A stretch of DNA of 64,000 nucleotides, from assembly GCF_026072915.1 (NCBI RefSeq), contig NZ_AP025943.1, forward strand, positions 1,426,001 to 1,490,000, written 5' to 3'. Origin of the DNA: Akkermansia biwaensis (GTDB taxonomy: Bacteria; Verrucomicrobiota; Verrucomicrobiia; Verrucomicrobiales; Akkermansiaceae). The position numbers were made by a program, and so were the translations under genes. Positions 25,446-38,731 of this stretch are shown here, piece after piece; the stretch's first letter is position 1, and the number at the start of each line of letters is the position of its first letter. A model generated the notes under the pieces. The model had not been told where the DNA came from and did not search any database. It saw only the letters and a list, made by a program, of their open reading frames with translations.

Positions 25446-26039
25446 CTATAAAGTAGTGCCGAGCTCAATAATGGAGTAATCCCCGTCCGGCCTTCTGTAC
25501 ACGATCTGGAGAACGTCGCGCCGCGCGTTGCGGTACAGCACGAAAGGCTTGTCGGAAAGCTCCAGTTCCATAATGGCCTCTTCCTTGTAGAGTTTCTTAA
25601 GATTGTAGCTTTCGCGGTGAATCAGCATCGGTTCCGGGTCTTCCTTGGAATCTTCCGGGTAATCGAGTACGGAATCGTCATACACGGTTTCATCCAGCTT
25701 GCGGATGGTTTCCTGATGATGAGGGCGGAATTTCTTCATCAGGCGTGTTTTGTGCTTCCGCATGCGACGCATGATCTTGGTGATCGTTTCGTCGATGCAG
25801 GCGTACATGTCCGCTCCCTCCGTGGAAGCGTCAATGGTGATGTGGTCCGAGCAGAACAGGATAACCTCGGAAATCATGCGGTCGCGTTGCACATCAAGTA
25901 AGACTTTAACCTCCATAATGCGCGGGAAATCCAGACGGATCCCTTCAATCTTTTTCGTTACGAATTCCCGGATCGCGTCGGTTACTTCCACATGGCGCCC
26001 CGTGATCGTAATAGGTGTATTTACGTTTACCTTTTGCAT
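25446..26039 (-). CDS. hpf: Ribosome hibernation promoting factor, long form
   Basis: Binds idle 30S subunits and, in the long form, dimerises 70S ribosomes to 100S in stationary phase. From ATG 26039 (MQKVNVNTPITITGRHVEVT) the protein has 197 aa. The N-terminal beta-alpha domain of the HPF/YfiA family covers about residues 1-105 and contains a basic helix (ITKIMRRMRKHKTRL). After a linker, the C-terminal dimerisation domain reads EEAIMELELSDKPFVLYRNA ... YRRPDGDYSIIEL. AGAGG lies eight bases before the start. The longer frame to 26264 is not conserved in character. Confidence 0.92.
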   Translation of the reverse strand: MQKVNVNTPITITGRHVEVTDAIREFVTKKIEGIRLDFPRIMEVKVLLDVQRDRMISEVILFCSDHITIDASTEGADMYACIDETITKIMRRMRKHKTRLMKKFRPHHQETIRKLDETVYDDSVLDYPEDSKEDPEPMLIHRESYNLKKLYKEEAIMELELSDKPFVLYRNARRDVLQIVYRRPDGDYSIIELGTTL

Positions 26040-26093
26040 TGTCGTACCTCTTTCTATTGATGTTGATTGCGGAACCCTGTCCGCACCTTTCAA

Positions 26094-26121
26094 GATATAC
26101 AGATTTGACAATGTTTGTCGA
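26094..26121 (-). promoter_or_regulatory. Candidate promoter of hpf
   Basis: Reading the minus strand, TCGACA (26121-26116) and TATATC (26099-26094) are 16 bases apart and lie 55 bases upstream of the hpf start. Match is moderate. Confidence 0.35.
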
Positions 26122-26326
26122 GGAATCCTTTCTTTTTTTCCGCCCGTGATGTCGGAAGCCATCTGTTCCTCCTTCTGTTTGCAAGGCCCGTTCTTTGCGC
26201 CTAGCGGTTGTTTTCCAGTCTGCGGCGCGGGTGAGCCCTGGCACGGAGCGAAAAAAGGAAGCATGTGGAGGCGCTGCGGACCTTTGTCATGCGGCAGGAA
26301 ATATTAAAAATTTTATATAAAAAAAC

Positions 26327-26470: not shown

Positions 26471-26505
26471 AAAACCCTGCAAGTCAAAACCTTGCAGGGT
26501 TTTAT
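26471..26505 (+). terminator. Terminator of tRNA-fMet
   Basis: A perfect hairpin AAAACCCTGCAAG / CTTGCAGGGTTTT with a seven-base loop, seven bases after the CCA end. A related hairpin occurs again at 28315. Confidence 0.9.
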
Positions 26506-26647
26506 TTGGACCAAAATCTTGGTTTTCTCCCTTCGAATATTTTCAAGGGAAATAAAAATTGTCGCTGCTGCGTGAAAGAAATTCCGGGTATAATTAGGTA
26601 TATTTGAAAAAGTTTGTTAAATATCCCCTGCTTTTGAAATACACCGG

Positions 26648-28075
26648 ATGAATAAACTGAATATGAAAGTTTCAATCTCTCTTTTTCTTGTCGTTCTTTT
26701 TTCAGTCTGCGCACCGGGACTTCGGGCGGAAAAAGGGAAAGAGTCCCAGCCTCCCAACCTCGTGGTATTGTTGGCGGATGATCTCGGTTACGGTGATTTG
26801 GGTTGTACGGGCTCTCTCCAGATACCTACGCCCAACATTGATAATCTGGCTAAACAGGGTGTATTCTGTTCCCGGGCCTATGTGTCCGCCCCGATGTGCG
26901 CCCCATCGAGAATGGCGCTGCTGACGGGAAGATTTCCCAAAAGATATGGCATCACGACGAATCCTAATTCAAAGATCGACTATCTCCCGGAATCCCATTA
27001 CGGGCTGCCCCAGACGGAAAAATGTCTTCCCCAGTATCTTGCCGAATTTGGTTACAACAGCGCCGTGATCGGCAAATGGCACTTGGGACATACGGAGGGA
27101 TACCAGCCCACCGACCGCGGTTTCGATGCCTGGTGGGGTTTTCTTGGAGGTTCCCGATATTATTTTCCCAATCGGCCGGAAAAAAAGGGGCTGAACCCGT
27201 CGAAGATTGTATCCAATTATACGGAGGAAACGCAGGTAAGCTATCTGACGGACGATATCGCACGCGAATGTATCCGCTTCATACGGAAACAGAAGGAAGC
27301 GGGGAAGCCATTCTTCCTCTATGCTTCGTTCAACGCCCCCCATGCCCCCTTGGAAGCGTTGCCGGAGGATTTGGAACGCTTCAAGCATATCAAGTCCAAG
27401 AACCGCCGGACCTATTGCGCCATGGTGCATGCTCTTGACAGGGCCATGGGGCGTATTTTGACAGCTTTGGATGAGACAGGACTGGCACGCAATACGGTCG
27501 TTGTCTTTTTGTCCGATAACGGAGGTGAACCTAATATTCCCACTTGCAATGCTCCTTTCAAAGGAGAAAAACGCATGCATTTTGAAGGCGGCGTTCGCGT
27601 GCCCATGATTGTCCGCTATCCTGCCGATTCCCGGATCAGGCCTGGTTCCGTTTGTGAGCAGGTCATTTCCGCCGTCGACGTGCTTCCTACGATGCTTGCG
27701 GAAAACGGGGCATCCATTCCCGAAAACCTGGATGGCATGAACATGCTGCCGCTGCTCGCCGCGAAGGAAAACAAAGTGCCGCGGACGCTTTACTGGTGCA
27801 CGGATTATACTTCCGCCATACTGGATGGAGATGAGAAATACCTGCTCGTGCCCGACCGGGCTCCCCAGTTATATAATGTCGTGAAAGATTATCAGGAAAT
27901 GAACGACCTTTATCCTCAGCACATGGAAAAGGCGGCTCCTCTGGCCCGCAAACTGGGTACTTATCTGACGACGACACCCGCCTCCCGCTTTCCGGATACC
28001 ATTTCCTGGTCTTCCGGTTTGATGCGGCAATACGACCATGCGCGCCCGGCCGTCCAGCCCGGTGCAAATAAGTAA
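26648..28075 (+). CDS. Sulfatase (cysteine-type, exported)
   Basis: Removes sulfate from a sugar, most likely on mucin glycans. 475 aa with a signal peptide (KVSISLFLVVLFSVCAPGLRA). The metal site begins in LVVLLADDLGYGD, and the modified residue is the Cys of CAPSRMALLTGR, matching the CxPSR sulfatase signature. GKWHLGH and FLSDNGGEPN are the next conserved active-site segments. The Cys must be converted to formylglycine by a maturase not seen here. It starts 183 bases after tRNA-fMet and is flanked by two similar hairpin terminators. A second ATG (26663) is an equally good start. Substrate position is unknown. Confidence 0.9.
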   Translation: MNKLNMKVSISLFLVVLFSVCAPGLRAEKGKESQPPNLVVLLADDLGYGDLGCTGSLQIPTPNIDNLAKQGVFCSRAYVSAPMCAPSRMALLTGRFPKRYGITTNPNSKIDYLPESHYGLPQTEKCLPQYLAEFGYNSAVIGKWHLGHTEGYQPTDRGFDAWWGFLGGSRYYFPNRPEKKGLNPSKIVSNYTEETQVSYLTDDIARECIRFIRKQKEAGKPFFLYASFNAPHAPLEALPEDLERFKHIKSKNRRTYCAMVHALDRAMGRILTALDETGLARNTVVVFLSDNGGEPNIPTCNAPFKGEKRMHFEGGVRVPMIVRYPADSRIRPGSVCEQVISAVDVLPTMLAENGASIPENLDGMNMLPLLAAKENKVPRTLYWCTDYTSAILDGDEKYLLVPDRAPQLYNVVKDYQEMNDLYPQHMEKAAPLARKLGTYLTTTPASRFPDTISWSSGLMRQYDHARPAVQPGANK

Positions 28076-28314
28076 TTTTTCTATTCCGTACATTCGCTGA
28101 GGTTCCCGGAGAGGTCATGTCTGCCGGATTGTTTCAGAGTAGATGCGTGTTTCGGCATCCTCAGGGTTGACGAGTGTTTGGATGCCTGGTCTTTTGCCGG
28201 AAGGCTATCCCCCGGCTTGAAGCATGGCTGTCTTTCTTCCAGCCGGGGAACGCAGTGGTTTCTTTGAGTAAAGACTGCCATACGTGTTTGGGATTCCTGC
28301 TGCTGCCATCCTTT
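28076..28314. other. Non-coding gap after the sulfatase
   Basis: No supported gene. The segment runs up to a hairpin terminator at 28315. Frames here are short and have no recognisable motif. Confidence 0.4.
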
Positions 28315-28352
28315 AAAAAGACCTGCAAGTTGACATCTTGCAGGTCTTTTTT
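28315..28352 (+). terminator. Terminator related to the tRNA-fMet terminator
   Basis: AAAAAGACCTGCAAG pairs with CTTGCAGGTCTTTTTT across TTGACAT. The core CCTGCAAG...CTTGCAGG is shared with the hairpin at 26471. It lies about 240 bases after the sulfatase stop. Confidence 0.8.
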
Positions 28353-28608
28353 CTCGAACAGGGTAATTGAGGAAATACCCGGAATATCAGGGAAAGCCTT
28401 CCAGGGAAGTCCCTTGATGGCCTGTAAAAGAAATTCTTCACGCTCCTTCCATGATGCGCTGCCTTTTCCCGGTTCTTGCGTTGCATATGATTGAAACAGA
28501 AGAAAGAAGTGGCATGTAACTCCGTCGTATCATATCCAAACTTGTCCATTGCCAGGATAAAAGTTTGCGTGCTAGCGTCGCTCAGTGAATCCACTTGAGA
28601 ATTAACCC
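28353..28608. other. Leader region of the glycan cluster
   Basis: No gene-like frame is seen. It presumably holds the promoter of the glycosyltransferase cluster; TTGCCA near 28551 followed 18 bases later by TAGCGT is a weak candidate. Confidence 0.3.
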
Positions 28609-29655
28609 ATGAGCACCTCCTTAAAGAAAATCTATGTCAACGGCTTCCCCAGCCTCTACGGTGGAGCGGGAACCGAACTCCACCACCAGATCCTGGTCTG
28701 GAAACACATGGACATTGACGTCCACATCATCCCCACCAACGACGGCTTCCAAAACGAAATCCTCTATCTGGACATGGTCAGGCTGGGCGTCCATATCCAC
28801 GCTCCCAACGACTGGTCCGTTCTGGAAGAAGGCGATGCCATCATCGGATTCTGCAACGGCGAATACCTGGAAAACCTCCCCGCCATCCGCCAAAAAACCA
28901 GGCGCACCATCTTCGTCAACTGCATGACCTGGCTCTTCAACAAGGAAAAGGAACTCATGAAGCAGGGGCTCATTGCCATGTTCCTCTACCAGAACGAAGA
29001 AGTCAGGCAGAAAAACATGCCCCTGCTCAAGCGCTGCAACGACGACCCCTCCATTGCGTTCATGACCTTCAAGCCCTACTTCCACAACGACTCCTTCCCC
29101 TTCATCGCCGAGAGAAGCGGGGAATACTTCGGCTGCGGGCGCATCTCCCGGCAGGACGCGGACAAATTCGCCGCCAACACGCTCCACATCTACGAATACT
29201 TCGTCTCCCCCCTCTTCAAGCGTGGCCTGTTTCTGGGCTTCGACCAGAGGAGCCGGGAGAAAATCGGAGAACCCTACGGGTGGATACGCACGGCGCGCGA
29301 CCAGAGGGAGGTGAGCCAGCAGGACTTCTACAAGCACTGTGAAATAGTGCTTCAGCCCACGGACACGACGGAAAACTGGCCGAGAGTGGGCTTTGAGGCC
29401 ATGGCCAGCGGAAGCGTACTGGTGGTGGACAACCGCGGAGGTTGGCGCCAGATGGTGGAGCACGGCAAAACCGGATGGCTGTGCGACCATGAAAGGGACT
29501 TCATCTACTACGCCAGCAAGATGGCCTACGAACCGAACCTGAGGAGGGACATGGCGGAGGCGGCTCGGGAGCGCGGTATGGAGCTGGGGGGGCTGGAATC
29601 GTCGGTAGCCAGCTGGGAGGAAATCTTTGAAGCGGTGGAACAGCTTCCTGCCTAG
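28609..29655 (+). CDS. GT4-like glycosyltransferase
   Basis: Predicted cytoplasmic sugar transferase, 348 aa, with no membrane segment. The N terminus KKIYVNGFPSLYGGAGTELH has the glycine-rich acceptor loop of GT-B enzymes. The C-terminal donor-binding region reads VLQPTDTTENWPRVGFEAMA, then SGSVLVVDNRGGWRQMVEHG and TGWLC, typical of GT4 with an EAMASG core. It is the first gene of the cluster and ends 14 bases before the three-domain protein. Codon use is unusually C-rich in the first two thirds. The sugar is unknown. Confidence 0.82.
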   Translation: MSTSLKKIYVNGFPSLYGGAGTELHHQILVWKHMDIDVHIIPTNDGFQNEILYLDMVRLGVHIHAPNDWSVLEEGDAIIGFCNGEYLENLPAIRQKTRRTIFVNCMTWLFNKEKELMKQGLIAMFLYQNEEVRQKNMPLLKRCNDDPSIAFMTFKPYFHNDSFPFIAERSGEYFGCGRISRQDADKFAANTLHIYEYFVSPLFKRGLFLGFDQRSREKIGEPYGWIRTARDQREVSQQDFYKHCEIVLQPTDTTENWPRVGFEAMASGSVLVVDNRGGWRQMVEHGKTGWLCDHERDFIYYASKMAYEPNLRRDMAEAARERGMELGGLESSVASWEEIFEAVEQLPA

Positions 29656-29669
29656 AAAGGAGAAAAGAC

Positions 29670-31919
29670 ATGAAAAAGCAAGTGAAGATACTGGTAGGAA
29701 TCTGCTCGTGCCAGCGGATGAAGGAAAAGAGGGATGCGGTGAGGGAGACGTGGCTGAGGCATCCGGCGGATGGGATAGAATGCGTGTTCTTCGTGGGAGG
29801 AAAGGAAGGAGTGGAAGAGGAAAGGAGGGATACGGTGGTGCTGGACACAGCGGACGGCTACAACGAGCTTCCGGGGAAGGTGAAATCTTTCTTTGTGTAT
29901 GCGCTGGAGAACTACGACTTTGAGTGGTTGTTCAAGTGCGATGACGACACGTATGTGGACTTGGGACGTTTGGAATCCCTGGTTGATGATGAGTATGACC
30001 TGATCGGGGATGTGCTGGTATCGACGCGCAACTCACCGAGTGGAGGAGCGGGTTATTTTCTGAAGAGAAGCATGGTGGAGAAGCTTGTGGAGGCGCCCGG
30101 TTTTCCTGACTGCGGAGCGGAAGACCTGATCGTGGGTGAACTGGCAGGAAGGCTGGGAGGCCGGATGAAGTCAACCGGCCGTCTTTACACGAGCAATGTT
30201 CATTATCCGTATAAGGACAACGACATGGTGACGGCGCACTGGTGTACGCCCGCCATTCTGCGTGCCCTGCATGAATTCAACTACTCACGGCCGGATGTGG
30301 TGGGGGATGCCTGCCATCCTCAATGGAAGGATGAACTGCATTTTTATGCCAGTGGAGTATTCCGCCGCAAATCTTCCGGCTGTTATGGGTGGTGGAGTAT
30401 GGGCAGCCAGGGAGAGCTGATACTGAAATGGCTCGTCTGGCCCATGGAACAACTACTGCCTCAGCATGGAAAATATGTGGGGTCATCCATCACAATTCAA
30501 TTCCGTATCGGAATGATGCCCTTGGAACAATGGCGTCAGGAACATGGGAGCAATGCCGGATTTCCGCATTCGCCCAAATTGTATGTCCATCTTGGCTGCG
30601 GAGATCGGCGTTTAAGCGGCTGGCTGAATCTGGATGTTCCCAATTATGATATATCCCGCCCTCTGCCTTGGGAAAATGAATCTGTAGATGCTTATTATTT
30701 GGAACATGTCATTGACAAGGTAAGCTCGGAGAAAGTCTGCGGCTTCTTTTTTGAGGCGTTTCGCTCCCTGAAGCCCGGCGGCATGTTGAGACTTGCATTC
30801 CGGGATGTGCTGTCTCTGGCGGGGACCGTTACCCCTGCATTCCGCCGGTATATGAAAAACAAGTATCCGGACACGTTCATCCCTTCCAATGAAGTGGGGG
30901 CCATCCTGGCATTCTACAGGCAAAAATCCTTGTGGACGGTTGATTTACTGACGGAAATACTGAAATCCGCAGGTTTTGAAGTGGAGGTTCTGGATCCGGG
31001 CGTGTCGGAGCATACCCACTTGCAGTCGCTGGAACGTCGTTCCGACCGGGATGAACATCCTTTCGATCTGCTGGGAACTGTTTGCATGGAGGCGAAAAAG
31101 CCGGCATACAGAACCCAAGTCAGACAGGCCCCCGCCGATTTCCGTGTCCTTTCCACGGATAAGTGGAATGATTGCGTGGCTCCTTTCTTCACGAATTGTA
31201 CACGCACGGGGAACCACCTTTTCCAGATTGCCGCTATTTACGCTCACGCCCTCCGCCATGGGCTTGAATGCAGAATCCCTTGGAAACGGAAGGAAGAAAC
31301 CGTGAAGTTGAGGGCGTGGCTGGGGGACTCCTGTTCATGCTGTCCTGAAGGGGGATACGAGTTTCCCGTTGTTTACAAGGAGCCGTGTTTTTCCTATCGC
31401 GCCATTCCCGGCATGATTCGGAAGGGAGCCATAAAAGGTTATTTTCAGAGTGAAAAATATTTTGAGGAATATGGAAACGAAATACGCTCCCTCTTCGGGA
31501 ATTTAATCGCTCCCATCCGAGAGGGAAGGGCGGGTGTCCATTTAAGGATGGGCGATTACCTCCATCTGACCTCCCTCTACCATACTCCGGATGTGCCCTT
31601 CCTGAATGAAGCGCTTGCAAGGCTGTCCGGCAATATCAGCAAGCTGGTCATTTTCTCCGACTCTCCGGGACTTGCCCGTAAACTAATGGATAATGTTCCT
31701 GAGGCCCGGCGTTTTGAAATAGTGATGGATGAACATGAAACGCTGGGCGCCCTTCGGGAATTGACATCCATGCAGGAACTCGTTCTTTCCTGTTCCTCCT
31801 TCTCCTGGTGGGGAGCTTATTTGGGAGATCAGGACAAAGTCTTTATCCAGAAGGAGTGGTTTGCAGGTAAAATTACGGATTATCAGGATGTCTATCGGAA
31901 CAAATGGATAAAAATTTAA
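29670..31919 (+). CDS. Three-domain fusion: GT31 galactosyltransferase-like, SAM methyltransferase-like, GT11 fucosyltransferase
   Basis: A 749-aa protein with three enzyme domains. Residues 1-205 resemble GT31 beta-1,3-galactosyltransferases: KREAVR-like EKRDAVRETWL, WLFKCDDDTYVDL (DxD metal motif near 91) and GAEDLIVGELAG. Residues about 300-475 look like a class I methyltransferase: KLYVHLGCGDRRLSGWLNLD (motif I), LEHVIDKV and LKPGGMLRLAFRD. Residues about 500-749 match GT11 alpha-1,2-fucosyltransferases: TRTGNHLFQIAA, GYFQSEKYFEEY, GVHLRMGDY (HxRRGDY-like, one Arg changed to Met) and SSFSWWGAYLG. AAAGGAGA gives a good ribosome site. The first 510 bases are purine-rich with AGG/AGA codons, unlike the rest, suggesting a recent domain join. 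Confidence 0.85.
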   Translation: MKKQVKILVGICSCQRMKEKRDAVRETWLRHPADGIECVFFVGGKEGVEEERRDTVVLDTADGYNELPGKVKSFFVYALENYDFEWLFKCDDDTYVDLGRLESLVDDEYDLIGDVLVSTRNSPSGGAGYFLKRSMVEKLVEAPGFPDCGAEDLIVGELAGRLGGRMKSTGRLYTSNVHYPYKDNDMVTAHWCTPAILRALHEFNYSRPDVVGDACHPQWKDELHFYASGVFRRKSSGCYGWWSMGSQGELILKWLVWPMEQLLPQHGKYVGSSITIQFRIGMMPLEQWRQEHGSNAGFPHSPKLYVHLGCGDRRLSGWLNLDVPNYDISRPLPWENESVDAYYLEHVIDKVSSEKVCGFFFEAFRSLKPGGMLRLAFRDVLSLAGTVTPAFRRYMKNKYPDTFIPSNEVGAILAFYRQKSLWTVDLLTEILKSAGFEVEVLDPGVSEHTHLQSLERRSDRDEHPFDLLGTVCMEAKKPAYRTQVRQAPADFRVLSTDKWNDCVAPFFTNCTRTGNHLFQIAAIYAHALRHGLECRIPWKRKEETVKLRAWLGDSCSCCPEGGYEFPVVYKEPCFSYRAIPGMIRKGAIKGYFQSEKYFEEYGNEIRSLFGNLIAPIREGRAGVHLRMGDYLHLTSLYHTPDVPFLNEALARLSGNISKLVIFSDSPGLARKLMDNVPEARRFEIVMDEHETLGALRELTSMQELVLSCSSFSWWGAYLGDQDKVFIQKEWFAGKITDYQDVYRNKWIKI

Positions 31920-31966
31920 GTTTCAGCACCTTAATATAATAATATGAAACTTGGAATCAATTCACC

Positions 31967-32875
31967 ATGAATACAAAAACAAAACGAAACATACGCGTTA
32001 TTCATTCGCGATGGCAGGGAAACTGCCGCATAGAGGGGCTCCGGCTTTTCCGCGAACAAGGGAACGACATGGCTATCATTACGGAAGGGGACGGAGAAGA
32101 CCCCCGTGCCCTGTTCTGGCCCGGATACGAAAGTGTCGAACTGCTCATCTACAACCCGGCTACCGATGAGTATTTTGCAACGGGGGCGGCGGGGCAGTGG
32201 CAGTCCCGGCATTGTGCTGCAAGCGTAACCGGTGCGAAATATGTTCTTCACGAACCGAGCAGAACATTGATGTACCTGATCCCCAAAAACGCGTGCAGTA
32301 CGCAAATGGGAACCGTGCTTCACGAATTGGGATTCAGGCCCGCAGCGGGCAGCCCGTCGAGGGTTTGGAACGGCAATGCCTACAGTCACTGCCTGAACAA
32401 TGAGGACTACGATGCGGACAAATTCGGGAAATACACTCATCTGGTCGTTTTCCGCGATCCTGTCGAAAGGTTTGTCAACCTCGCCAATTATGCCTGGTGC
32501 ATCAACCGGGGAATGTTTTCTCCCTTCACTTCATCCTGCAAAAGCAAAAGGCAGCTGCTGGACACCATGCATCTGCTTGTCCGGATGAATGAAGCCAATC
32601 ATCCCGGCAGATTTGAGCAGCATCTTGAAGGGCAGGCCTGGTATTACGACCATTGCCCCCGCATTGACACGGTGGTCCGCGTTGAAGACCTGACCGACTA
32701 TATGAAAACCGTCATGAACGTGGAGCCGTACAACTGCAATGTGGACGGCAAATACGAACTGACGCGCGACGATTTGACAGAGGAAGACATCGCCAGGATC
32801 AGGGAAAACTGGGCCGGTGATTTCCTGCTTGAAGAACGCTTCAAGGAACTTTTCTGGATTAACCCTACGAAATAA
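31967..32875 (+). CDS. Carbohydrate sulfotransferase-like protein
   Basis: Predicted PAPS-dependent sulfotransferase of the Sulfotransfer_2 type (relatives of heparan and chondroitin sulfotransferases), 302 aa. The 5'-phosphosulfate loop is LMYLIPKNACSTQMGTV, and the 3'-phosphate-binding segment is LVVFRDPVERFVNLANYAW. There is no signal peptide or membrane helix, so it likely acts in the cytoplasm on a lipid-linked or nucleotide-linked glycan before export. The N-terminal 90 residues form an additional, unrecognised domain. It sits 47 bases after the fucosyltransferase fusion and six bases before a CysD gene that would help make its donor. Confidence 0.8.
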   Translation: MNTKTKRNIRVIHSRWQGNCRIEGLRLFREQGNDMAIITEGDGEDPRALFWPGYESVELLIYNPATDEYFATGAAGQWQSRHCAASVTGAKYVLHEPSRTLMYLIPKNACSTQMGTVLHELGFRPAAGSPSRVWNGNAYSHCLNNEDYDADKFGKYTHLVVFRDPVERFVNLANYAWCINRGMFSPFTSSCKSKRQLLDTMHLLVRMNEANHPGRFEQHLEGQAWYYDHCPRIDTVVRVEDLTDYMKTVMNVEPYNCNVDGKYELTRDDLTEEDIARIRENWAGDFLLEERFKELFWINPTK

Positions 32876-32881
32876 CAAACC

Positions 32882-33688
32882 ATGACTGACTGGATAGAAA
32901 AAACGCACAGAATCATTGAAACGGCTCTTTCCAAGGCAAAGCGCCCGGCCGTCCTCTGCTCCTACGGCAAAGACAGCATCGTCCTGCTGGATTTGCTCCG
33001 GCAGCACGTCAACCTGGACCGGCTGAGGGTCATTCACGTCGATACGACCTTTGAATTTCCGCAGCTTTATGCCTACAAGAAAAGCATTATCAAGGAATTC
33101 GGCATTGGTTCCGGTGATCTCACCGTGACCAATACGGCTGCCCTCAATTCCGGGATGAACTATGAAAACACGCCTGTTTTCGAAGTGACGGCTGCCCTCA
33201 AGACGGAACCCCTCAAGCAGGTTATCCGTGATGAAGCAATCGACTTCCTGTTCACGGGAATCCGCCGGGACGAAGAAGGTTCTCGGGCCAAGGAACGCTA
33301 CTTCTCCTACCGGGACGCCCAGGGCGTTTATGAACCGTCGGACAACAATCCGGAATTCCACCCCTTTGAAGGAGTCAATATTTCCTCTCCGGAAAAAGGG
33401 CATTACCGGGTCAATACCCTGTTGGACTGGACGGAACTGGACATCTGGCAATATACCCTGGAACACAAACTTCCCCTGTGCCCCCTTTACCTTGCAGTTG
33501 ACGGCAAACGCTACCGTTCCCTCGGGTGCATGCCTGTAACCACTCCGGTTGATTCCGGGGCGGATACCATTGAAAAAATCATTGATGAAGTAGCCGTGAC
33601 TCTGGTTCCGGAACGCGCCAGCAGGGCGCGCCAGGACGAAGCCGTGCCGCATTGCATGGAAATGCTCCGCCGCAACGGTTTTTGCTGA
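32882..33688 (+). CDS. cysD: ATP sulfurylase small subunit (CysD type)
   Basis: Forms adenosine phosphosulfate from sulfate and ATP together with a CysN GTPase. The 268-aa protein has the PP-loop SYGKDSIVLLDLL near residue 22 and the diagnostic CysD segment GIRRDEEGSRAKERYFSYRD. The last quarter (SLGCMPVTTPVDSGADTIEK, then EVAVTLVPERASRARQDE) matches CysD rather than APS/PAPS reductase, which would carry redox cysteine pairs. It starts six bases after the sulfotransferase and precedes a CysN-like GTPase. No APS kinase gene is visible in the window. Confidence 0.88.
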   Translation: MTDWIEKTHRIIETALSKAKRPAVLCSYGKDSIVLLDLLRQHVNLDRLRVIHVDTTFEFPQLYAYKKSIIKEFGIGSGDLTVTNTAALNSGMNYENTPVFEVTAALKTEPLKQVIRDEAIDFLFTGIRRDEEGSRAKERYFSYRDAQGVYEPSDNNPEFHPFEGVNISSPEKGHYRVNTLLDWTELDIWQYTLEHKLPLCPLYLAVDGKRYRSLGCMPVTTPVDSGADTIEKIIDEVAVTLVPERASRARQDEAVPHCMEMLRRNGFC

Positions 33689-33710
33689 TTCATCCCCCAC
33701 ATTCAAACAT

Positions 33711-34424
33711 ATGAAATCAAAAGCCACAATAGCCGTATGCGGCCTGATGGACAGTGGAAAATCCACGCTCATCAAGAGCCTTCTCCGGAAGAACACCGGA
33801 CGCGTGATTGAACCGGATGCCCTCTGCATTGAACAGGCCACGGGCCGTACGATCACGGGGACCCGCATCGCCTGCCCCGTCAATGACCATACCGATCTGG
33901 TCTTCTGTGACTGCCCCGGGCATCTGGAATACCTTCCGGAAATCGTGTCGGGGCTGTGCGCCTCCAGGGGATATATCCTGATCATTGATGAAAATCGGAG
34001 GGAACAGTCGGAAGCCTACCAGCGGAAGCTGGGAGAAATTGCCGCCGCCATCGGCGTGGAAAACATCGCCGTGGTCCACAGCCATTCCATGGAGGAACAG
34101 ACAGAGCAAATCCATTATGATACGGAACAGCCTTCCTTTGATGCCGCCATGGATCGGCTGCTGGAAATCATGGACCGTTTTCTCCGGAAGGAGCATCAGG
34201 TTCCGCCAGACGAATCCCGCGTCGTATGGTTTGATTCCCTGGACGGAACGGCCCGGTACGTTCTATATGACTCCGCGGGTCATGCTCTGGACTGGTCCCA
34301 TGAAGGCAGCCATGATCCGGGGGACTGTTCTCCCATTGACGGCTTGCCGCCTTCCCTCTCCGGCCGTTTTCTCGTCTGCCGCGCCAAAAAGGGAAATATC
34401 GTGGGCGTGGGATGCGCCGCCTGA
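33711..34424 (+). CDS. Short CysN-like GTPase
   Basis: 237 aa, about half the size of CysN (about 470 aa). G1 is GLMDSGKSTL, a G2-like threonine is in TGRTIT, and G3 is DCPGHLEYLPEIVSG, all arranged as in CysN/EF-Tu GTPases. The G4 motif NKxD is absent at the expected place (NIAVVHSHSMEEQ). The beta-barrel domains II and III of CysN are missing; instead there are about 80 residues that I do not recognise, ending GRFLVCRAKKGNIVGVGC. It probably serves as the partner of the upstream CysD, 22 bases away. A different nucleotide specificity, or a purely structural role, is possible. Confidence 0.7.
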   Translation: MKSKATIAVCGLMDSGKSTLIKSLLRKNTGRVIEPDALCIEQATGRTITGTRIACPVNDHTDLVFCDCPGHLEYLPEIVSGLCASRGYILIIDENRREQSEAYQRKLGEIAAAIGVENIAVVHSHSMEEQTEQIHYDTEQPSFDAAMDRLLEIMDRFLRKEHQVPPDESRVVWFDSLDGTARYVLYDSAGHALDWSHEGSHDPGDCSPIDGLPPSLSGRFLVCRAKKGNIVGVGCAA

Positions 34425-34777
34425 AACATTCGGGAATAACCTGCATGCCGTCGGTTCTTGGTGAAAGAGCCGGCGGCATGCCGCATTTTGCGGCGCTCTT
34501 CAATATAATGTCCGGATTTTCTATTACATTGACCAGGAAGGGCGTTGTGAAATAATTCAAAAGCGGATTTGGCCGGACGGAATGCAGGCAGGGGAAAGTA
34601 TGAAAAAAGCGCAGGAAACCGCCGGTATATCTGGCAACTGGAAAATGCCGGAGCACCTGACTCTTTTTTGTATGATTCAATACACATGCGATGTCGCGGG
34701 CACAGCCTGTACAGGAAACCGCATGGTGGAAAAAAAGGGGATGCCATTCACCTTTGGATTGATTATTTGAGTTCATT
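34425..34777. other. Gap after the sulfation genes, with a terminator-like hairpin
   Basis: At 34441-34482 GCATGCCG-T-CGG pairs with CCG-GCGGCATGC across a short loop, followed by a weak T-tract, and likely ends the cluster transcript. The rest shows no gene. Confidence 0.5.
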
Positions 34778-34806
34778 TTGAGACGGTGTTCCGGCTGACG
34801 TGATAA
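34778..34806 (+). promoter_or_regulatory. Candidate promoter of the GH31 gene
   Basis: TTGAGA (34778-34783) and TGATAA (34801-34806) are 17 bases apart, immediately before ATG 34814. If used, the transcript would be almost leaderless, or translation could begin at ATG 34844 (MLRKTVLL). Confidence 0.35.
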
Positions 34807-34813
34807 AAATGAT

Positions 34814-37800
34814 ATGATAATGGGAAAATCAACTGACAGCGGCATGCTGAGGAAAACGGTGTTACTGACCTGCGGCCTATCTCTCTTCTTCTCCGGCTTT
34901 GCCTTTTCCGCCCAGAGCGGTCCGCAGGAAGGGTCGCAGTCCCCGATGGTGGAGAATGCCAGGAAAATCAATCCTTCAGCAGTCGAGGTGCTGCTCGGGA
35001 AAGACCACCGGATGACCTTCGACTTTTACGGGGACAACATCTTCCGCCTTTTCCGCGACGATTCGGGAGGAATTATCCGGGATCCGAAGGCGGAGCCCGA
35101 AGCTAAAATACTGGTCGACCAGCCCAGGAAGCCCGTTTCCAGACTGGATGTCGGCACCGAAGGGGATACGGTCACGATCACCACGGGAAAAATCAGGGTG
35201 GAAATTGACAAGAAGACTTCCCTCATCAAAATCGTTGACTTGAAAACCGAAGCCGTGGCTGTTGAGCAGGCGGCTCCCGTCCTCTTTGAAAAAGGCAAAA
35301 CCACCCTGTCCCTGAAAACGGGGCCGGAGGAATACTTCTACGGAGGAGGCGTGCAGAACGGCCGCTTCTCGCACAAGGGAAAAGTAATTTCCATTGAAAA
35401 CCAGAACAGTTGGACGGACGGAGGCGTAGCCTCCCCCACTCCCTTCTACTGGTCCACGAACGGCTACGGCCTTCTGTGGCATACGTTCAAGAAGGGGCAG
35501 TATGACTTTGGCGCCAAAGAAAAAGGCACCGTCAATCTCAGCCATGATGAAAACTATCTGGATGTCTTCTTCATGGTTGACGACGGAGCGGTCAACCTGC
35601 TGAGAAAGTTTTACCAATTGACGGGAAATCCCGTGCTGCTGCCCAAATTCGCCTTCTACCAGGGTCATCTGAATGCCTACAACAGGGACTACTGGAAGGA
35701 AGATGAAAAAGGCATCCTGTTTGAAGACGGCAAGAGATACAAGGAAAGCCAGAAGGACAACGGGGGAATCAGGGAATCCCTGAACGGAGAGCTGGACAAC
35801 TACCAGTTTTCCGCCCGCGCCGTGATCGACCGTTACAAGGCCCATGACATGCCGCTGGGCTGGCTCCTCCCGAACGACGGCTACGGCGCCGGGTACGGAC
35901 AGACGGATACTCTGGACGGGAACATTGCAAACTTGAAAAGCCTGGCAGACTACGCTCTGAAAAACGGGGTGGAAATAGGCTTGTGGACCCAGTCGGACCT
36001 GCACCCCAAACCGGAGATAAGCGCCCTTTTGCAGCGTGACATCGTCAAGGAAGTCAGGGATGCCGGGGTGCGCGTATTGAAAACGGACGTCGCCTGGGTC
36101 GGAGCCGGCTATTCCTTCGGCCTGAACGGCATTACGGATGTTGCCCAGATCATGACCTATTACGGGAACAACAGCCGCCCGTTCATCATCTCCCTGGACG
36201 GCTGGGCCGGGACCCAGCGTTATGCCGGCATCTGGACGGGCGACCAGACGGGCGGAGCGTGGGAATACATCCGTTTCCATATTCCTACCTACATCGGCTC
36301 CGGCCTCTCCGGCCAGCCGAACATCTGTTCGGACATGGACGGCATCTTCGGCGGGAAAAATCCCGCGGTCAACATCCGCGATTTCCAATGGAAAACCTTC
36401 ACCCCCATGGAACTCAACATGGACGGATGGGGAGCCAATGAAAAATATCCCCATGTATTCGGGGAACCCGCCACCTCCATCAACCGGTGGTATCTGAAGC
36501 TCAAATCGGAACTGATGCCTTACGCCTACAGCATTGCGGAAGAATCCGTCAGCGGAATGCCCATGGTCCGGGCCATGTTCCTGGAATATCCCAATCCCTA
36601 TACCTTGGGCAAGGCAACGCAATACCAGTTCCTCTTCGGCCCCTATTTCCTGGTGGCTCCCGTCTATCAGGATACGAACGCGGACAAGGAGGGCAACGAC
36701 GTGCGCCACGGCATTTACCTGCCGGAAGGCCAGTGGATCGACTACTTCACGGGCGACCTGTACGAAGGGGGTAAAATCTACAACTGTTTTGACGCCCCCG
36801 TCTGGAAATTGCCCGTCTTCGTGAAAAACGGGGCTATCATTCCCATGACGGGCCCGAACAACAACGTGTCGGAAATAAATCCGAACCACAGGATATATGA
36901 AATTTACCCCCATGGCCGCACTTCCTTCACCACGTACGACGACGACGGCGTAACGGAGGAATACCGTCAGGGCAGGGGCGTCAAAACCCGGATTGAATCG
37001 GCCCTTGACGGCAGTAATAACGTCACCGTCACCGTTCATCCGTCGGTTGGCGACTTCAACGGATTCGACAAGAAAAAGTCGACGGAATTCCGTATCAACG
37101 TGACACGGAAGCCGGACAAGGTTTCCGCCCGGATTGGCAAGGATAATCTGGAACTGGCGGAAGCGGCGTCCAAAGACGACTTCCTGTCCGGGGAAAACGT
37201 TTATTTCTACGACGCCGCTCCCAACCTGAACAAATTCGCCACGAAGGGAAGCGACTTTGAAAAGAAGGTGATTTCCAAGAACCCGCAGCTTTTGGTGAAA
37301 CTGACCGCGACGGACGTCACGGCAAATCCCGTGGTGCTTTCCGTGGAAGGCTTCCAGTTCCAGCCTGCCGAAAAATACCGTCTTTCATCCGGTCCTCTTT
37401 CCGCTCCTGCGAATGCCGGGGTCACGGAAGAAAACACGACGGCCTACACGCTGAAACCCACTTGGAATGCAGCAGCCAATGCGGACTACTATGAAATTGA
37501 GTTCGGCGGCATGCTGTACACCACCATCAAGGGAACGGAATTCCTGTTCGAGGACCTGGAAGCCGAAACCCCCTACTCCTTCAAACTGCGCGCCGTCAAC
37601 CGCGACGGCCATTCGGACTGGACGGCCTTTAATGCCAAAACGCAGGCTAATCCGCTTGAATTTGCCATTGAGGGAATTGTCGGTGAAACGACTGCGGAAA
37701 ACCAGGGCAATTCCCTGACCAAGCTGTTTGACTTCAAGGAAAAGGATGCCTGGCACACGAAATATGGTGCGAATGCCCTCCCGTTTGATCTGGTCATGGA

Positions 37801-38731
37801 TCTGAAAACGATCAACAAGATTGAAAAATTCCATTACGTCCCCCGTGAAGACGCCGGGAACGGCACCCTTCTGAAAGGTACCGTCTTCTACAGCATGGAC
37901 AAGGAAAACTGGACGAAGGCCGGAACCTTCCAGTGGGACAAGAACAACGAAGTGAAAATCTTCGGGTTCAAGGACGCTCCCACCGCCCGCTACATTAAGC
38001 TGAATATAACCGAAGGCGTGGGAGGATACGGTTCAGGACGGGAAATCTACGTCTTCAAGGTACCGGGAACGGAAAGCTACCTTCCGGGCGATATCAACAA
38101 TGACGGCAAGATCGACAGGAACGACCTTACCTCCTACATCAACTACACGGGATTGAGGAAAGGGGATTCCGACTTCGAGGGCTATATCAGCAATGGGGAC
38201 ATCAACAGGAACGGCCTTATTGACGCTTATGACATCTCCGTCGTGGCCACCCAGCTGGAAGATGACTCCGACCAGCCGCAGGAGGATGCCGGCCAGGATA
38301 AGGGGGATGCCGAAGAGAAGAAGGACGCAACCGAGAAAAAGAAAGAGGAACTGGGCGGAAAACTTCTGATCAGTGCGGACAAAAAGAGATACGCCAAGGG
38401 AGACATCGCCAAGGTTACCGTCAAGGGCCAAAAGCTTAGTCTGGTGAATGCCTTGAGCTTTGCCCTCCCGTATGATCCCAAGGATTATGAATTCGTGGGT
38501 GTGGAGGTCAAGGACATGAATAAGATGGAAAACCTGACGAACGACAGGCTCCATACGAGTGGAGACAAGGCCTTGTATCCCACCTTTGTCAACATCGGCG
38601 ACAAGGAGCCGGTGGAAGGAACCAAGGAACTCTTTGTGTTGAAATTCAAGGCCAGAAGAGATGTCAAATTTGATTTAAAACTCAAGGACGGCATGCTGGT
38701 GGACAAAAAACTGAATACCAAAAAATTGTAA
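34814..38731 (+). CDS. Modular GH31 glycoside hydrolase with FN3, F5/8C-like, dockerin and cohesin-like domains
   Basis: Secreted 1305-aa glycosidase with a signal peptide near residues 12-33. The GH31 module covers about 60-790. The likely nucleophile is Asp 425 in VLKTDVAWVG and the acid/base Asp 477 in WTGDQTGGAWEYI, followed by SGLSGQPNICSDMDG. Then come a fibronectin type III domain (about 858-948), an F5/8 type C-like carbohydrate-binding domain (about 955-1085), a dockerin with two calcium repeats (GDINNDGKIDRNDLTSYI and GDINRNGLIDAYDISVV), an acidic Lys/Glu linker and a C-terminal cohesin-like domain. Substrate is an alpha-linked sugar; relatives in mucin degraders act on alpha-GalNAc or alpha-Gal, so I favour an O-glycan target, unproven. 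Confidence 0.88.
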   Translation: MIMGKSTDSGMLRKTVLLTCGLSLFFSGFAFSAQSGPQEGSQSPMVENARKINPSAVEVLLGKDHRMTFDFYGDNIFRLFRDDSGGIIRDPKAEPEAKILVDQPRKPVSRLDVGTEGDTVTITTGKIRVEIDKKTSLIKIVDLKTEAVAVEQAAPVLFEKGKTTLSLKTGPEEYFYGGGVQNGRFSHKGKVISIENQNSWTDGGVASPTPFYWSTNGYGLLWHTFKKGQYDFGAKEKGTVNLSHDENYLDVFFMVDDGAVNLLRKFYQLTGNPVLLPKFAFYQGHLNAYNRDYWKEDEKGILFEDGKRYKESQKDNGGIRESLNGELDNYQFSARAVIDRYKAHDMPLGWLLPNDGYGAGYGQTDTLDGNIANLKSLADYALKNGVEIGLWTQSDLHPKPEISALLQRDIVKEVRDAGVRVLKTDVAWVGAGYSFGLNGITDVAQIMTYYGNNSRPFIISLDGWAGTQRYAGIWTGDQTGGAWEYIRFHIPTYIGSGLSGQPNICSDMDGIFGGKNPAVNIRDFQWKTFTPMELNMDGWGANEKYPHVFGEPATSINRWYLKLKSELMPYAYSIAEESVSGMPMVRAMFLEYPNPYTLGKATQYQFLFGPYFLVAPVYQDTNADKEGNDVRHGIYLPEGQWIDYFTGDLYEGGKIYNCFDAPVWKLPVFVKNGAIIPMTGPNNNVSEINPNHRIYEIYPHGRTSFTTYDDDGVTEEYRQGRGVKTRIESALDGSNNVTVTVHPSVGDFNGFDKKKSTEFRINVTRKPDKVSARIGKDNLELAEAASKDDFLSGENVYFYDAAPNLNKFATKGSDFEKKVISKNPQLLVKLTATDVTANPVVLSVEGFQFQPAEKYRLSSGPLSAPANAGVTEENTTAYTLKPTWNAAANADYYEIEFGGMLYTTIKGTEFLFEDLEAETPYSFKLRAVNRDGHSDWTAFNAKTQANPLEFAIEGIVGETTAENQGNSLTKLFDFKEKDAWHTKYGANALPFDLVMDLKTINKIEKFHYVPREDAGNGTLLKGTVFYSMDKENWTKAGTFQWDKNNEVKIFGFKDAPTARYIKLNITEGVGGYGSGREIYVFKVPGTESYLPGDINNDGKIDRNDLTSYINYTGLRKGDSDFEGYISNGDINRNGLIDAYDISVVATQLEDDSDQPQEDAGQDKGDAEEKKDATEKKKEELGGKLLISADKKRYAKGDIAKVTVKGQKLSLVNALSFALPYDPKDYEFVGVEVKDMNKMENLTNDRLHTSGDKALYPTFVNIGDKEPVEGTKELFVLKFKARRDVKFDLKLKDGMLVDKKLNTKKL

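Follow-up and report, generated by a model that had tools for sequence, protein, structure and literature searches.

Layout of the locus

The window analysed here is a 64,000-nucleotide stretch of Akkermansia biwaensis (G000:C1:1426001-1490000), whose genome, designated G000, is a single contig of 3,175,525 bases. An open reading frame (ORF) check of the window recovered five genes at the coordinates and on the strand given by the first-pass annotation:

28609..29655, plus strand: GT4-like glycosyltransferase, 348 aa (PF00534, E 4.8e-11; the copy in genome G262 is 98% identical)
29670..31919, plus strand: GT31/methyltransferase/GT11 fusion, 749 aa (PF01762, PF02434, PF08241 below cut-off, PF01531)
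31967..32875, plus strand: STF1, Sulfotransfer_2-like protein, 302 aa (PF03567, E 6.4e-4, 20.4 bits against a cut-off of 22)
32882..33688, plus strand: divergent CysD, the ATP sulfurylase catalytic subunit, 268 aa (PRK05253 over cut-off; PP-loop kept)
33711..34424, plus strand: CysN-like GTPase stub, 237 aa (PF00009, E 2.5e-12; no barrels, no APS kinase domain)

The genes are separated by 14, 47, 6 and 22 bases in order, the last two gaps being as previously stated, and they probably form one operon. Promoter and terminator scans returned signals at chance level. By simple hydropathy, none of the five proteins has a signal peptide or membrane stretch, and all look cytosolic. The family labels proposed at first pass hold in part: GT4, GT31, GT11 and CysD exceed their profile cut-offs, while the sulfotransferase call is weak on its profile score alone and "short CysN" is a generous name for a protein with only about 120 CysN-like residues and no NKxD motif.

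Predicted glycan-building enzymes

The fusion protein comprises three recognizable parts:

About 29727-29993, plus strand: GT31/Fringe-like part (PF01762, PF02434)
About 30654-30788, plus strand: methyltransferase-like part (PF08241, below cut-off)
About 31452-31916, plus strand: GT11 fucosyltransferase-like part (PF01531)

The first matches Galactosyl_T (PF01762) at E 1.9e-11 and 44.5 bits against a cut-off of 23, over profile positions 2-105 of 195, and the last matches Glyco_transf_11 (PF01531) at E 6.5e-15 and 55.6 bits against 23.9. The central Methyltransf_11 match reaches 19.5 bits against a cut-off of 21.2, and three of the four plasmid matches beneath this stretch are annotated as methyltransferases. 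GT31 enzymes make beta-1,3 links and GT11 enzymes add alpha-1,2-fucose; an H-antigen-like end is therefore the simplest guess, and from family knowledge the product is perhaps an H-type fucosylated glycan end. Such a glycan could mimic host mucin.

A divergent CysD and a CysN-like GTPase stub

CysD matches PAPS_reduct at E 1.1e-35 and passes the NCBIfam model PRK05253 (206.2 against a cut-off of 195 bits), falling below that of TIGR02039 (166.7 against 396.6 bits). It keeps the SYGKDS PP-loop and the RxDE..RxKER motifs common to other CysD proteins. In a CysD tree, midpoint-rooted for drawing only and open to long-branch effects, the three genomes that carry the cluster (G000, G036 and G262, the carriers) stand together on their own branch of length 2.17 (support 100/100). 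Five assimilation-type CysDs from other Akkermansia cluster with one another (99/94) inside another well-supported group, and this separate placement led to rejection of the idea that the window CysD was copied from the assimilation CysD of the genus. The only other PAPS_reduct match in G000 is weak and partial, within a 530-aa frame; thus no CysH is recognized, and the cluster is unlikely to act in sulfate assimilation.

The stub scores 22.4 bits on TIGR02034, below the cut-off of 336.1, and beyond its GTP_EFTU (PF00009) match it aligns over residues 2-122 with CysN of another Verrucomicrobiota genome, with E values down to 8.3e-10. Alignment with 11 CysN-type proteins located the following motifs:

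33741..33767, plus strand: G1 motif GLMDSGKST
33909..33923, plus strand: G3 motif DCPGH
34077..34091, plus strand: site of the CysN NKxD motif, HSHSM in the stub

NKxD is present in all 11 CysN-type proteins, and HSHSM is identical in G036 and G262. The stub keeps the switch-I Thr region, lacks 20-odd residues before switch I and ends before the two beta-barrels that follow the GTPase domain in CysN. Outside the carriers, blastp found a CysN-type ORF of at least 411 aa in 13 of 15 CysD neighbourhoods, and the stub is shorter than all of these. The CysD neighbourhood of G126 showed just an APS-kinase motif, the ORF filter having taken the opposite strand. In another genome (L179, G361:C11:34000-45000) no CysN-type ORF was seen around a short CysD, the next ORF being transporter-like. 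Searches of viral contigs and plasmids lent no support to phage or plasmid relatives of the stub, the plasmids giving only three weak matches.

Nucleotide loops of the putative sulfotransferase

STF1 retains two putative nucleotide-binding loops:

32285..32302, plus strand: 5'-phosphosulfate loop KNACST, aligned with the matching loops of 30 phylum relatives
32453..32479, plus strand: 3'-phosphate loop RDPVERFVN, with Arg163 kept and Asn171 in place of Ser

A 5'-phosphosulfate loop with Lys and Ser/Thr is characteristic of sulfotransferases, and in known sulfotransferase structures the Arg and Ser of the 3'-loop bind the 3'-phosphate of PAPS. The alignment held seven Akkermansia STFs, from three paralogue groups in three genomes (the broken STF1 of G262 was left out), and 30 relatives taken from the 62 PF03567 matches listed, three of which were the carriers' own. 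All seven Akkermansia proteins have a 5'-loop of the form KNA[CN]ST, and the 3'-loop Arg is kept in 37/37 sequences. Eight residues past this Arg, the Akkermansia STFs have Asn (7/7) where the relatives have Ser (29/30) or, in one case (L113), Ala. PF03567 itself matches five of the seven Akkermansia STFs at E<=1. The STF profile gave nothing meaningful against the PDB (best E 0.52), and one relative was likewise uninformative.

Two STF paralogues lie elsewhere in G000, at about 250 kb (55% identity) and about 2,610 kb (40% identity). Neither has a CysD nearby: the one clear PAPS_reduct match in the genome is that of the window. Of two orphan STF paralogues (L016:9084-10046 and L017:9534-10451), one is next to a DUF6056 protein and the other has an alpha-L-fucosidase at a distance of about 6 kb and an acyltransferase at 8.5 kb. 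Searches for mobile kin of STF found no match in phages, plasmids or viral contigs. A Skermanella sulfotransferase was dismissed as a close relative because it aligns poorly; on plasmid pSR-1 of Skermanella rosea (L038) a sulfotransferase is clustered with a short CysD and a gene annotated as cysC.

These features bear on whether the proteins handle sulfate at all. The PP-loop protein and the stub might not make APS but activate or modify some other substrate, with the STF-like protein not being a sulfotransferase in practice. The long CysD branch, a stub devoid of NKxD and barrels, and an STF below the PF03567 cut-off would fit that reading. It is nevertheless improbable: CysD keeps its PP-loop and RxDE/RxKER motifs and passes PRK05253, STF keeps both nucleotide loops, and the genes abut.

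The missing APS kinase

A whole-genome profile search for APS kinase (PF01583) came up empty in G000 and G036 at E<=0.001, and in seven genus genomes including G000, G036 and G262 nothing exceeded the cut-off even at E<=10. PF01583 does match 42 of 59 genus genomes, 32 of them over cut-off, but these matches cover only about 49 of 152 profile positions, the P-loop, and were thus not taken as APS kinases. The sub-cut-off P-loop scraps in the carriers resemble those in cluster-free relatives (for instance an 805-aa frame in G000 and an 812-aa frame in G084). Of 14 control genomes, 11 score over the cut-off with the same profile.

Across the phylum, PF03567 is matched at E<=0.01 in 48 of 288 genomes (including G000 and G036, both below cut-off) and over cut-off in 39. 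Full-length matches to APS kinase (E<1e-40) occur in 37 of the 39 other Verrucomicrobiota genomes with an over-cut-off Sulfotransfer_2 protein, as compared with three of 20 other comparison genomes, which may not all belong to the 288. Fisher's test, in which kinship is ignored, gives 6e-10 for 37/39 against 3/20 and 9e-4 for 37/39 against 0/3 carriers. An STF and an APS kinase are no more than 5 kb apart in five of the 39 (G260, G167, G233, G291 and G281). The two exceptions that have no full-length APS kinase, G299 and G312, are both in many contigs and both have a Ser-type STF. PAP phosphatase was uniform, with one PF00459 match in each of 12 genomes, carriers and non-carriers alike.

With no APS kinase found, the textbook PAPS route is broken in the carriers, and either STF uses APS or PAPS comes from a kinase that does not resemble Pfam APS_kinase. 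The second option is canonical sulfation: a diverged or non-homologous kinase would supply PAPS, and Asn171 would replace Ser with the donor unchanged. The 3'-loop Arg163, kept in all STFs, argues for it, as does the genome of L113 (G172), which has an APS kinase although its STF carries Ala, showing that Ser is not absolutely needed. G299 and G312, with Ser-type STFs, also have no full-length kinase. Against it stands the readiness with which the profile finds APS kinases in control genomes and in the 39 sulfotransferase genomes, when the carriers yield only sub-cut-off scraps. On balance this explanation is a serious contender, somewhat short of even odds.

The first option would make the Akkermansia STFs a family that takes its sulfo group from APS and not from PAPS. 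CysD and the stub would feed APS to STF in a two-step route, the kinase would be dispensed with, and the Ser of the 3'-loop would have given way to Asn. This proposal is speculative and rather doubtful as it stands; G299 and G312 (Ser, no full-length kinase) and G172 (Ala, kinase) speak against a simple link between kinase and loop.

Distribution and selection

STF is found in two of 59 genus genomes and in three of 387 phylum genomes, namely G000, G036 and G262, with no other carrier among the 387. The window-type CysD is confined to the same three genomes; some CysD match occurs in 213 of the 387, the next best at 47% identity. Full-length copies of the stub are likewise limited to three of 76 Akkermansia genomes. 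Some stub match is present in 66 of the 76, but 63 of these are weak only, at 24-32% identity, and presumably represent other GTPases. A scan of genome contigs with the stub returned the G036 locus alone.

G000 and G262 each have the complete five-gene set in one place. In G036 the contig breaks off within the fusion gene, so that part of the fusion, STF, CysD and the stub are visible and GT4 is beyond view. The expectation that the genes would co-occur is thus borne out across three carrier species, each represented by one genome and G036 by a partial view, but with a frameshifted STF in G262. The G262 fusion protein is 86% identical to that of G000 over all 749 aa, CysD 97% and the stub 93%. 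Its STF1 has, besides the frameshift, GTG in place of ATG and a Gly in the 5'-loop; CysD and the stub are intact, as is STF3. The frameshift is possibly an assembly error. Persistence of CysD and the stub beside a broken STF1 means that they may serve something else too.

In comparisons among the three carriers, dN/dS across the cluster is 0.033-0.231: CysD 0.033-0.048, stub 0.083-0.130, GT4 0.100 (one comparison), fusion 0.124-0.177 and STF1 0.055-0.231, the last including the downstream piece in G262. Among the paralogues, STF2 gives 0.29 (one comparison) and STF3 0.095-0.169. Coding constraint is strong, and selection keeps the cluster. These values bear on the idea of a decaying remnant, in which CysN or CysNC was truncated, sulfate activation was lost and sulfation ended. 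The size of the stub, which falls short of all CysN-type partners observed (at least 411 aa), and the broken STF1 of G262 would suit such decay, but the between-species ratios for the stub and CysD, and a stub length that is the same in all three species, make it the least probable of the explanations.

Synonymous divergence is uneven. dS is 0.39-0.60 in the fusion and 0.39-0.51 in STF1, as against 0.10 in GT4, 0.15-0.30 in CysD, 0.16-0.25 in the stub and 0.17-0.30 in the neighbouring GH31 gene. The raised values at 29670-31919 and 31967-32875 suggest exchange of fusion-STF alleles with the supply genes fixed, as in surface-antigen loci.

A variable islet

The five genes occupy a larger unit together with a sulfatase:

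26504..34787 (right edge approximate), no strand: islet of about 8.3 kb with the five genes and a sulfatase, missing at the same place in related genomes
26648..28075, plus strand: sulfatase in the left part of the islet, outside the five-gene operon (PF00884, E 4.1e-61; hydrophobic N-terminus)
34814..38731, plus strand: GH31-like protein, the conserved right neighbour, with F5/8, dockerin-like and (below cut-off) cohesin-like parts

The site is bounded on its other side by a conserved gene (25446-26264, minus strand). The sulfatase is probably exported, judging from its N-terminus. The GH31-like neighbour has a near full-length match in nine of 10 related genomes tried, at 76-85% identity. 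DNA comparison of seven related regions found that in G084, G016, G048 and G046 the flanks, matching up to 26503 and from 34766-34817 onward, are separated by just 228-284 unaligned bases, and that in G014 alignment is confined to the GH31-like gene. G053 has only a C-terminal remnant of the sulfatase at the site, and G262 has the sequence from 28535 on with the sulfatase, the left part of the islet, absent. In G159 (L078, G159:C1:1188000-1200800) the site is occupied by about 8 kb of other, unrelated ORFs, of which by eye one is aldo-keto reductase-like and one dehydrogenase-like. A site that is near-empty, remnant, replaced or partial across relatives is therefore variable in the genus.

Relation to known systems

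The first-pass annotation likened the locus to the rhizobial NodH-NodP-NodQ system, where a sulfotransferase stands beside genes of CysD and CysN type that serve a glycan and not assimilation. That arrangement is shared, but the likeness ends at the donor step: NodQ carries an APS kinase, whereas none was found in the Akkermansia genome, which pairs a divergent CysD with a GTPase stub and has other acceptor enzymes.

Another CysD and CysN-family GTPase pair is CysD-CysN(C) of Mycobacterium tuberculosis, in which CysN has an APS kinase at its C-terminus and the PAPS it makes goes to sulfotransferases; this kinase is absent from the Akkermansia operon (PMC4373884). Within the same phylum, Pontiella sulfatireligans, one of the marine Kiritimatiellae, has a cluster for a sulfated glycosaminoglycan-like exopolymer in which GT4 genes, a methyltransferase and a sulfotransferase occur together. 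Its sulfotransferases differ in being described by a PF13469 domain, and its strains have cysDNCHIJKM (PMC7356697). In the same genus, the assimilatory sulfate reduction locus of A. muciniphila AmI shares the names CysD and CysN with the window, but it has cysH and its CysD type lies elsewhere in the tree; that report describes the assimilation genes as absent from AmII and AmIV strains (PMC8262928). G052 and G159 each have a 575-aa CysN next to CysD. A passage of the AmI report names CysD as APS kinase, and a CysD so annotated would not raise the question of a missing kinase (PMC8262928).

Proposed pathway and significance

Taken together, the five-gene operon on its variable islet may assemble and decorate a surface glycan that is both fucosylated and sulfated, with a non-canonical donor step, a reading given a probability of roughly 0.55. 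The GT4 enzyme and the fusion would build and fucosylate the glycan, perhaps with methylation. Sulfate and ATP would be converted to APS by the divergent CysD, with the stub assisting as a nucleotide switch, and STF1 with its two scattered paralogues would place the sulfo group on glycans. Acceptor, linkage, glycan location and sulfo donor are inferred, as is the operon. The sulfated-glycan pathway first proposed for the locus remains plausible, but the PAPS step is missing; an "activated-sulfate supply" is arguable as far as APS and no further. Literature searches, judged from titles and abstract openings and in part phrased too narrowly to establish absence, listed no report of this operon or of APS as a glycan-sulfotransferase donor.

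What is most surprising is the donor problem. PAPS is the usual donor in sulfation biochemistry, and if the donor here were APS, this would be a departure from it and a shorter route to sulfated sugars. Akkermansia feeds on sulfated, fucosylated mucin glycans. If some species also make a sulfated, fucosylated glycan of their own, this would bear on colonization, immune recognition and the choice of strains.
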